A DNA stretch of 64,000 bases from Sulfurimonas sp. SAG-AH-194-I05 (GTDB taxonomy: Bacteria > Campylobacterota > Campylobacteria > Campylobacterales > Sulfurimonadaceae). The stretch spans positions 1-64,000 of the forward strand of contig NZ_JAEMVA010000004.1 of NCBI RefSeq assembly GCF_029215955.1. Reading direction: 5' to 3'. A program made the position numbers and the translations under genes. Shown here piece after piece: positions 60,886 to 64,000 of the stretch. Positions within the stretch are counted from its first letter, which is position 1, and each line of letters begins with the position of its first letter. Below the pieces are notes generated by a model. The model was not told where the DNA came from, searched no databases, and saw only the letters and a program-made list of their open reading frames with translations.

Positions 60886-61281
60886 ATGCTAATTTTAGAA
60901 ACAGATGTACGAAAAGTTACCGATGACGTAATGAATATGTTGCATGAAGATGAAAGAGAACTTATTAACGCATTTTACGATGCTGTTGTTGCTAAAGATA
61001 TAGACAAAATTGATACACTTTTCAAAGTTGTTTTAGTGGAAGTTGAAGCACATTTCAAAAGTGAAGAAGATATGATGGAGCAGGGTGGCTATGCTGGACT
61101 TGCGGTTCATAAAAGTGACCATGATGCAATGCGTGCAAAGTTAGAAAAGTTTCATAAAAGATGGGAAGTACTTAAAGGTCCAAAAGAAGTACGAAGTTTT
61201 TTAGAAAAAGACTTTAAAAAATGGATGATTTCACATGTTGCGACACGTGATAAAGATGCTTCGCAACATTTAGGAAGTTAA
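60886..61281 (+). CDS. Single-domain bacteriohemerythrin
   Basis: 131 aa four-helix protein that binds O2 at a di-iron site. Iron ligands by position: H20 (N-terminal helix, HEDERE), H56 and E60 (EAHFKSEEDM), H75 and H79 (HKSDH), H117 and an Asp at 122 or 124 (SHVATRDKD). It probably stores, buffers or senses oxygen, fitting a microaerophilic respiratory lifestyle. ATGGAGATTAA is the ribosome site and TATAATATA at about 60846 a likely -10. It converges with the receiver gene. Confidence 0.88.
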   Translation: MLILETDVRKVTDDVMNMLHEDERELINAFYDAVVAKDIDKIDTLFKVVLVEVEAHFKSEEDMMEQGGYAGLAVHKSDHDAMRAKLEKFHKRWEVLKGPKEVRSFLEKDFKKWMISHVATRDKDASQHLGS

Positions 61282-61282
61282 T

Positions 61283-61660
61283 TTATTTTTGTAACACTAA
61301 CTCCATTTGAGCAATAGCCTCTAAGGCATGATTAAACTCTTTTGGAGTGATTAAAAATGCATGAATACCTTCATCAACCATCTCGGCTAGTTTCCCCTCA
61401 TCATTTAAAGAAGCTAAGGCAACTATTTCTTGCTTTTTTTGTATCTCTTTGATTTTTTTCATGAAGCTAGTACCATTTGAAATGTCTACACTAACATCAT
61501 TTATAACAATATCGTATGTGTTTTCATCAATAAGGGCTAAAGCCTCATCTTCATTAGAAGCTTTATCAGTTGTAATAAAAACTTCATTAAATACTTTAGA
61601 ATTTGAATCGAGCATTGACTTTTCTTCTGTAATGAAAAGTACTTTGTATTTTTTAGTCAT
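61283..61660 (-). CDS. Degenerate stand-alone receiver domain protein
   Basis: 125 aa CheY-like fold. The acidic pair E12-E13 and a phospho-acceptor-position D55 (YDIVINDVSVD) are present, as is S84 in VALASLND for the conserved Ser/Thr. The invariant Lys before Pro in helix 5 is missing: LITPKEF has T105-P106 where K-P is expected. It may therefore not switch by phosphorylation in the usual way. Its ATG overlaps the AAA+ gene stop (TAATG), so the two are co-translated and probably partners. Confidence 0.72.
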   Translation of the reverse strand: MTKKYKVLFITEEKSMLDSNSKVFNEVFITTDKASNEDEALALIDENTYDIVINDVSVDISNGTSFMKKIKEIQKKQEIVALASLNDEGKLAEMVDEGIHAFLITPKEFNHALEAIAQMELVLQK

Positions 61661-64000
61661 TACTTTCCTAGTATCTCATTAAGTTCATCTTCATAAATAA
61701 TTTCTTTTTCAAGGAGTATTTTAGATAAATTTTCAATAGTAGACCAATGTTCATCTACTAAACCTATAATATTCTTTTTACCCTCATCCATCCAAGATTC
61801 AAGTGCTGTATCTATTTTTTGGTGGTAATGTTTTGTGTCATTTGCTTTAATTGAAATACCTTTTGCATCGAGTACCCCATTAATATTTATATAACCAACA
61901 TTTTCATCCATTCCATAAAGGGCAATGGCTGCATAGGCGTCGCGAGTAGCTTGTTGTAAGTCATTTGATGCACCAGTATCAAGACCATCTACTTTACCAA
62001 AACGCTTGATCTGTGCTGTACGTCCTGCTAAAGAAACACAAATTCTGTCTTTGAAGTCTTTTATTGTCATGTTGTCTTGAACATCATTGTAGTCATGTGA
62101 AATAAAGTGATGCTTATTGTCTTTAGGTGTTAAACTCACATGCTCAATATGAATGTGAGGTACAAGAACCTTGGAAATAACTGCACGTCCAGCTTCATAA
62201 ATAGCTATTTCATTAAACATTTGTTCAGGAGATAAATACGACTGTTTTTCACCGTATTTAATAAGGTTAATTTGTTCTATTAAAATGTCTTGCGTGATAG
62301 TGGGTAAACTATGACGAAGACAGTAATACGAGGCTTCTTTACCTACGAGTTCAAGCTCTGCACCGGTGAGTCCTGCTGTATACATAAGGAGTTTAGGGAT
62401 ATCAAAATCACCACTTGTAGGTTTTTTCTCAATAACTTGATTTAAAAAATATTTTCTAGCGTCTTTATCGAGGTTATTAATTTCGATATGAATTTCTACT
62501 CGTCCAGCTCGAATGATTGCACTGTCAATATTTTCTTTATAGTTTGTTGCAGCTATTACAAAAATATTTTCATCACTGTTGTCTGAAAAACCATCCATTT
62601 CAGAGAGGAGCTTATTAATAGGGACTTCTCTATTGCTATCTCCTCCACGTTTTCCAATAGTGTCGATTTCGTCGATAAAAATAATGGCAGGTGCATATTC
62701 TTTTGCTTTAGAAAAAATTTGTCTTGTCATTTCAGGTTGAAGAAGTTCTAAACCTGTTACAGAAATAAATGGAAGCTCAGCTTCTCTTGCAAATGCTTTT
62801 GCAAGCATAGTCTTACCAGTTCCTGGAGGTCCATATAAAAGCATACCTTTTGGTGGCTCAATGTTGAAACTTCTAAGAAGCTTGGGCTCTTTAAAGAACG
62901 TAATAACTTCATGAAGTCTTTGTTTCGCTTTATGATGACCGGCGATGTTTTCAAAAGATACTTTTGGTATATCAAAAACAAGACCATCTTCACTAAAGTC
63001 TTTAATTCTGATAACTTGTTTAAATTTACAGTCGATAATTTTGTATGTTATAACACCATTTTTACTTGTAATACTGTCTTGAACTTCGAGGGTAATATTT
63101 TTCCTAAAGAGTTCACGCACAAGTCTGTCGTCTTCTATTAAGGGGTTTACAGTTTCTTTTAGAAATGCGACACAAGATTTTGAAACAGATATTTTTATAC
63201 TAGTAAAACTCTCCATTACTTTTTGGGAATCTAAAATATACTCAGTAATACGGTTAAAGAAAAGTGTACTTACCTTGTCCTTGAGACGCCTTGCATCAAG
63301 TTCTGGAGCAAAGTTGAGTATTTGAATTTTTAAAAAGTTTATAAAATTATTTGAAGTTTGAAGTTCAATTTTATAACGTTTATGAAAGTCTTCTCTGTAT
63401 GTTTGAAAAACGCCATCAACTATTTTTTCATGTGCTTCGTACCCTAGCTTGTTAAATAAAACAATGTGTGCTTTAGAAAACCTAGAAATTAACTCAGGTA
63501 CAATAGCTTCTTGGTATCCACCACTTCTACTATCTCTTTTTGTTTCTCTTCTAATGGCTTCAAGAATCATCGATTCAGCTTGAATGTAATCTTTTTTGAC
63601 AAGGTCTTTAAATCTATAGTCAAGGTAAAGCTCTTTACCTAAACTTGAAGTAATAATAAATATAGTTTCTGTAAAGTCAACGAGATAGTTTGCATTTTCA
63701 TCATTATAAATAATATCTTGGTCTTCATTACATGGTTCATCTGTAATTTTATCCCAACCACAACCATCACGCATTTTTCCACCCTCAAAAATAGAAAGAA
63801 GATTACTTTGAATAGTATTATCGCATTTTTCAAAAGCATCAAGGACAATTACAGCCTTGGGGTTTCTATGAACAAAACCAGTTAATTGACCAACGCCATA
63901 CCCTTTCCAACCAGCAGGGTAACCATAAAGTTCACCACCATTTTGTTGATGGTATTGTGTCATGTCAAATTTCATGATTTTATATTTAGGTAAATGTTTG
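61660..64000 (-). CDS. Tandem AAA+ protein: Clp-like AAA (dead Walker B) + FtsH-like AAA + M41 pseudoprotease (truncated by window edge)
   Basis: At least 779 aa are visible; the frame is open past the ATG at 63975 to the right edge, so the start lies outside. First domain (to about residue 240 from that ATG): Clp D2-like, with pore-loop-type AGWKGYG, Walker B VIVLDAFEK (catalytic Glu replaced by Ala), sensor-1-like ITSSLG, R-finger-like S-R-F-S and ELDARRLKDKV. Second: FtsH-like AAA with Walker A GPPGTGKT near 381-388, IIFIDEID near 431-438 and RAGR fingers, but L-L-Q-P-E in place of the F-x-G pore loop. Third: M41-like region with TGASNDLQQATRDA intact, yet HEXXH reads Y-E-A-G-R (593-597). 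Predicted to remodel, not cleave, proteins. Confidence 0.8.
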   Translation of the reverse strand, partial: KHLPKYKIMKFDMTQYHQQNGGELYGYPAGWKGYGVGQLTGFVHRNPKAVIVLDAFEKCDNTIQSNLLSIFEGGKMRDGCGWDKITDEPCNEDQDIIYNDENANYLVDFTETIFIITSSLGKELYLDYRFKDLVKKDYIQAESMILEAIRRETKRDSRSGGYQEAIVPELISRFSKAHIVLFNKLGYEAHEKIVDGVFQTYREDFHKRYKIELQTSNNFINFLKIQILNFAPELDARRLKDKVSTLFFNRITEYILDSQKVMESFTSIKISVSKSCVAFLKETVNPLIEDDRLVRELFRKNITLEVQDSITSKNGVITYKIIDCKFKQVIRIKDFSEDGLVFDIPKVSFENIAGHHKAKQRLHEVITFFKEPKLLRSFNIEPPKGMLLYGPPGTGKTMLAKAFAREAELPFISVTGLELLQPEMTRQIFSKAKEYAPAIIFIDEIDTIGKRGGDSNREVPINKLLSEMDGFSDNSDENIFVIAATNYKENIDSAIIRAGRVEIHIEINNLDKDARKYFLNQVIEKKPTSGDFDIPKLLMYTAGLTGAELELVGKEASYYCLRHSLPTITQDILIEQINLIKYGEKQSYLSPEQMFNEIAIYEAGRAVISKVLVPHIHIEHVSLTPKDNKHHFISHDYNDVQDNMTIKDFKDRICVSLAGRTAQIKRFGKVDGLDTGASNDLQQATRDAYAAIALYGMDENVGYININGVLDAKGISIKANDTKHYHQKIDTALESWMDEGKKNIIGLVDEHWSTIENLSKILLEKEIIYEDELNEILGK

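Follow-up and report, generated by a model that had tools for sequence, protein, structure and literature searches.

We have analysed the right-hand end of a 64,000-nucleotide stretch of DNA from Sulfurimonas sp. SAG-AH-194-I05 (the window; positions 1 to 64,000 of contig NZ_JAEMVA010000004.1), together with the sequence beyond its edge. The ORF list of the window contains a minus-strand ORF, 61660-63999, that is open up to the right edge. The contig (C45, 89,692 bases) runs past this point, and the complete gene, which occupies 61660..64000 of the window on the minus strand and has its start codon at contig position 64302 (302 bases beyond the edge), encodes 880 amino acids in one open frame with zero stops and its end at 61660. 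A frame error joining two separate genes is thus ruled out. An earlier note, made from the letters of the window, had described a Clp D2-like AAA segment continuing in one frame into an FtsH-like AAA and an M41-like domain; this architecture was confirmed by the full ORF, by Pfam and by sequence matches to PDB entries.

In the windowed part of the protein the Pfam matches fall in the order AAA_2 (residues 7-175, E-value 2.7e-18), AAA (386-508, 4e-37) and Peptidase_M41 (596-776, 2e-23). In the full-length protein these correspond to a Clp D2-like AAA+ domain (residues about 51-330; 63313..64000, continuing to contig 64152), which is related to ClpB D2 structures and has its Walker A motif, GSPATGKT, just beyond the window edge; an FtsH-like AAA+ domain (residues about 441-680; 62263..62982); and an M41-type domain (residues about 690-880; 61663..62235), recognised by both its Pfam and its fold match. 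The two AAA+ domains are joined by a linker or intermediate domain (residues about 331-440; 62983..63312), which is less conserved (69.5% mean identity) and is modelled as helices and a beta hairpin. All of these features lie on the minus strand. In sequence comparisons with the PDB, the N-terminal part of the orthologue L041 matched ClpB D2 (6.5e-20) and the C-terminal part of the Clp-FtsH protein matched FtsH. A full-length AlphaFold model of L041 is of moderate confidence (mean pLDDT 70.9, pTM 0.44), and its residues 435-873 adopt the FtsH cytosolic fold (Z 28-33, with Z 33 to 7zbh); Foldseek matches of this C-terminal half also include the Ycf2-FtsHi motor chains. No N-terminal transmembrane helices were found by a 19-residue hydropathy scan, in which the maximum was 1.08 for the Clp-FtsH protein against 2.63 for the genome's own FtsH. 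We take the gene product to be a soluble AAA+ protein with two rings, from a family of Clp-FtsH fusions. We call this the soluble Clp-FtsH family, defined by a Clp D2-type AAA, an FtsH-type AAA and an M41 domain in one chain and by a position outside the FtsH clade, all of which were found for the window protein.

The gene is flanked on both sides. Its stop is overlapped by the start of a minus-strand gene (61283..61660) for a response-regulator receiver-like protein of 125 aa (PF00072). Some of the usual conserved receiver residues seem, by eye, to be missing from this protein, so it may be a pseudo-receiver. On the plus strand beyond it, at 60886..61281, lies a gene for a hemerythrin-family protein of 131 aa (PF01814). 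The other flank is occupied by a gene for a 126-aa protein (contig 64316-64696) with a NikA-like Pfam match, apparently made up, as judged by eye, of two ribbon-helix-helix (RHH) units. The Clp-FtsH gene probably forms an operon with the genes for the RHH protein and the receiver-like protein.

To describe the catalytic sites, 24 orthologues of the window protein (clade A) were aligned alongside 12 grade-B, 8 C, 5 D and 14 E proteins and the genome's own FtsH, and all catalytic positions were read. The former HEXXH site reads Y-E-A-G-R (62185..62199, minus strand) and aligns to H-E-A-G-H of A. aeolicus FtsH; as the earlier note had it, both zinc-binding His are gone. The first of them is lost in 24/24 clade A orthologues (Tyr in 23, Lys in 1), the motif Glu is Glu in 22 and Gln in 2, and the position of the second His holds Arg in 22 and His in 2. 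The TGASND segment, also remarked on earlier, is indeed kept: D781 in TGASNDL (61960..61962, minus strand), the equivalent of the third zinc ligand, is an Asp in every orthologue. The M41 site of clade A is predicted to be non-proteolytic. Because the second His survives in two orthologues, the HEXXH Glu in most and the third-ligand Asp in all, some other metal or a small ligand may be held there.

Two further changes, absent from the earlier note, affect the ATPase rings. In the Clp ring the catalytic Walker-B Glu has been lost at A156 (63835..63837, minus strand), which is Ala in 18 and Ser in 6 of the orthologues and Glu in 12/12 grade-B proteins. The Walker A Lys, the Walker B Asp, the Arg finger and the pore-loop aromatic, W132 (63907..63909, minus strand), are present in 24/24. 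In the PDB sequence comparison this ring aligns to crystallised ClpB D2 chains that also have Ala at this Walker-B position. The Ala change has also been made deliberately in ClpB constructs, biochemists using it to trap substrates. In the FtsH ring the Walker A Lys, the Walker B Asp and Glu (E545 in the window protein), the sensor-1 Asn and both SRH Arg are intact in all 24 orthologues, and the FtsH-type FVG pore-loop segment is absent from the clade A alignment. The FVG loop is missing across nearly the whole Clp-FtsH family, although one deep B protein (L159) retains a YVG segment. Since the FtsH ring has no pore aromatic of its own, threading through it may be weak or absent.

The loss of the protease site is old and the rest of the protein is well preserved. 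Clp-FtsH proteins of full or nearly full length, bearing the same residues, occur in 24 records, and all domains are under strong purifying selection: among clade A pairs with dS below 1.2, dN/dS is 0.04-0.09 for the M41 domain against 0.01-0.05 for the two AAA domains, and mean identity within the clade is 72% for M41 and 80-84% for the AAA domains. One clade A orthologue (L051:5001-7626) is broken into two frames of 571 and 337 aa, either by an assembly error or as a broken copy. Exactly two M41 genes were found in the Sulfurimonas genome, the Clp-FtsH pseudoprotease and one separate, intact ftsH (HESGH, TGAGND), so that the two results that the earlier note had looked for in support of its claim, a conserved loss and a second ftsH, were both obtained.

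A maximum-likelihood tree of the FtsH-like part (71 proteins, 429 columns, the few trait columns among them) places all Clp-FtsH proteins and the E proteins apart from FtsH (100/100), in keeping with the earlier view that the window gene is not an FtsH orthologue. All clade A proteins fall together (100/100), and this clade lies inside the B grade; C, D and E group together (100/100), and within B there are some long branches of uncertain order. Grade B has the same architecture and order as clade A, with about 37-46% identity, and in 12/12 of its proteins both Walker-B Glu, all other sites read and HEAGH are intact. Since A is one clade nested within a grade with intact sites, the loss of the protease is best interpreted as having happened once, long ago. 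Homologues with an intact HEXXH do exist but belong to other clades, so they give no sign of a recent mutation in the window gene. In the remaining lines HEXXH and the Asp are intact in 27/27 proteins and the ATPase sites are degenerate in most. Thus C (L205-L211) and D (L197-L199, L212, L216) keep the protease site, and in most of them the ATP sites of both rings are degenerate, the inverse of the window protein. The E proteins (L185-L196, L214, L215) are soluble FtsH-like proteins that stand alone and measure about 450 aa; most have no Clp domain, and they combine an altered Walker B and Arg finger with an intact HEXXH.

Clade A was found in 26 of the 228 genomes of the family, fragments counted, and a GTDB-wide scan, which was pattern-based and reached close relatives only, also found it in records named Sulfuricurvum, Sulfurimonas, Sulfurovum and Arcobacter; the deeper genome searches covered Campylobacterota. 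The bacteria that carry the machine are mostly sulfur oxidisers. Searches of plasmids, phages and viral contigs gave no full-length match, and an origin from a mobile element or phage was therefore rejected. Three genomes (G118, G215 and G048) carry both A and B. An active Clp-FtsH relative is missing from most A carriers, among them the single-contig genomes G123, G125 and G127, and an obligate partnership with such a relative was rejected for this reason. A link to nif, suggested by the hemerythrins and LRV proteins nearby, was likewise rejected: nifH was not found in the Sulfurimonas genome (85% complete) or in G077 (99%), and A carriers occur both with and without it.

The neighbourhood of the gene recurs among the 26 A loci. 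Hemerythrins are near the gene in 21 of them, relatives of the receiver-like protein in 14, globin-like proteins in 13 (the one run against Pfam matched PF01152), the RHH protein in 12 and SelO in 10; rarer neighbours are ClpS-like (9), LRV (9) and trigger-factor-like (5) proteins. Across the 228 genomes, the RHH protein occurs in 20, of which 18 have A (Fisher p=1e-18, kinship of genomes ignored), and the hemerythrin Hr1 in 28, of which 24 have A (p=4e-26, again with kinship ignored). In several genomes the RHH or hemerythrin genes lie far from A, unlinked, so the association is not a matter of mere proximity. The gene neighbours and the co-occurrence suggest an oxygen- or stress-linked role of clade A (oxygen, NO or iron stress). 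The genome's own Hr1 (L245:11136-11534; G000:C18) lies just after a gene for a 259-aa protein that resembles thiazole synthase by eye, and this neighbour recurs in L246 and L250. In Sulfuricurvum records a ClpS-like protein lies directly upstream of clade A (L040:4697-4999 and similar), at the position held by the RHH protein in other carriers; the NDD motif of the L040 protein looks altered, by eye. An N-degron role for this neighbour was rejected, as it occurs at 9/26 loci only and not at the window locus, and the genome's own ClpS is on another contig near a Clp-like match.

The surroundings of grade B are different: clade A lies near hemerythrins, whereas grade B, with Walker-B Glu and HEAGH intact, lies near DUF4062, TIR and RyR-like genes. 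A conserved protein of about 180 aa is found just upstream in 7/12 grade-B loci and large DUF4062-type proteins are nearby in 7/12; the one such neighbour that was run against Pfam had DUF4062, NACHT-like and TPR matches. Loci at which these genes accompany an intact HEAGH (L155:7649-14545, L160, L201, L203, L204, L158, L159) are candidate defence loci. DUF4062 has been described as a TIR-like NADase with antiphage activity in a preprint (PMC13174449), the text of which makes no mention of AAA, FtsH, M41 or Clp. On these gene contents, grade B may belong to an immune locus. Membership of a known defence family was rejected, because PADLOC matches were limited to AAA domains and covered single domains only (IetA, PDC-M37B, DolB).

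Since the cutting site is lost and the rest is kept intact, the clade A protein probably reshapes or holds proteins rather than destroying them. We give an even chance to the reading that it is a non-proteolytic, ATP-driven remodelling or holding machine in which the protease was inactivated once and was kept as a structural base. The Clp ring, having no Glu for ATP hydrolysis, would stay ATP-bound and use the Trp of its pore loop to grip the client, the FtsH ring would provide ATP-driven movement, and the dead M41 ring would keep the hexamer together. We infer from the residues that clients would be held, unfolded or released in an ATP-dependent manner, and not cut; the hemerythrin and RHH partners might tie expression or client choice to oxygen, NO or iron stress. 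Of the two roles offered in the earlier note, a dedicated protein-remodelling machine or a scaffold for a real protease, the first is the best explanation, while the second is unlikely in view of G123, G125 and G127 and of the missing membrane anchor with which FtsH could be met.

Among the alternatives, the one that survives best, although we think it clearly less probable, is an ATP-dependent signalling switch or holdase, in which a locked Clp ring and a cycling FtsH ring would gate a partner (the RHH protein, the receiver or the hemerythrin) with no threading. The missing FVG loop, the predicted hydrolysis-dead Clp ring and the probable operon all agree with it, but the Clp pore aromatic and Arg finger, kept throughout, point to client contact in the channel. 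A regulatory pseudo-subunit that enters hexamers of an active protease (grade-B Clp-FtsH or membrane FtsH) and adjusts its activity, a role put forward for pseudoprotease subunits of mixed FtsH complexes, is unlikely: despite the FtsHi precedent (PMC8197885), the fold match to Ycf2-FtsHi motor chains and the three genomes with both A and B, most carriers have no active relative to join, and the protein lacks a membrane anchor and is only about 34% identical to FtsH. It is quite improbable that the M41 site has remained enzymatic, whether through a different arrangement of metal or through a different chemistry based on Tyr, Arg and the conserved Asp. These replacement residues are themselves conserved, but the substitutions of Gln for the motif Glu, of Lys at the first position and of His at the fifth count against it, and we know of no M41 protease that functions without the first His. 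Decay, assembly error or joined frames can be virtually dismissed, the one two-frame locus standing against 24 records that share these residues and against purifying selection on every domain.

Clade A differs from the systems that it resembles. With FtsH, m-AAA and i-AAA (M41) it shares an FtsH-type AAA+ followed by an M41 fold (NCBIfam FtsH 2.7e-88; Z up to 33), but it scores 297.3 bits, under the FtsH equivalog cut-off of 600, lacks the membrane anchor, the FVG pore loop and the zinc site, and carries an extra Clp ring. Of the features of FtsH zinc metalloproteases, Walker A, Walker B and the SRH arginines are present in 24/24, whereas the HEXXH zinc site with its Asp is not, although the Asp itself is kept. 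The likeness to ClpB, ClpC and ClpA lies in an AAA_2 domain of the Clp D2 type with Walker A, Arg finger and aromatic pore loop; clade A differs in having no Clp D1 or M domain and in the replaced Walker-B Glu. The double-ring unfoldases Cdc48/p97 and ClpB resemble it in having two AAA+ domains per chain and no proteolysis of their own, but in clade A one ring is Clp-type and one FtsH-type, with a dead M41 domain appended. The best-known pseudoproteases of the FtsH type are those of plastids. Plant FtsHi proteins have lost HEXXH and are nevertheless retained (PMC8197885), and like the Ycf2-FtsHi motor they have an FtsH-like AAA+ with an M41 domain; however, they are plastid membrane proteins with no Clp domain, whereas the loss in clade A lies in Campylobacterota, in a separate soluble family.

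No published Clp-FtsH fusion was found in a literature search, most subscription papers being outside its reach. What the earlier note had called an unfamiliar architecture, a Clp-FtsH fusion with the protease off, holds for this branch; it does not hold in general, the wider family including grade B with its active sites whole. Clade A is a combination of known domains, one for which no publication was found, that carries an old, fixed loss of proteolysis. More tentatively, at somewhat less than even likelihood, the soluble Clp-FtsH family may exist in three states reached by complementary loss: B with both activities intact, C, D and E with a degenerate motor, and A with a dead protease and one motor ring alive. 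In this scheme A would be a remodeller linked to oxygen or stress that acts together with hemerythrin and the RHH protein, B, near DUF4062, would perhaps be immune, and the family would offer a natural series in which single activities are missing from the machine. A single old loss in bacteria, with fully active relatives and motor-loss sister lines, would allow direct tests of an AAA+ protease from which evolution has removed one activity. The natural Walker-B Ala makes the clade A protein a ready substrate-trap candidate, and the DUF4062-type NADase proteins near its active relatives raise the possibility of a protease-NADase immune system.
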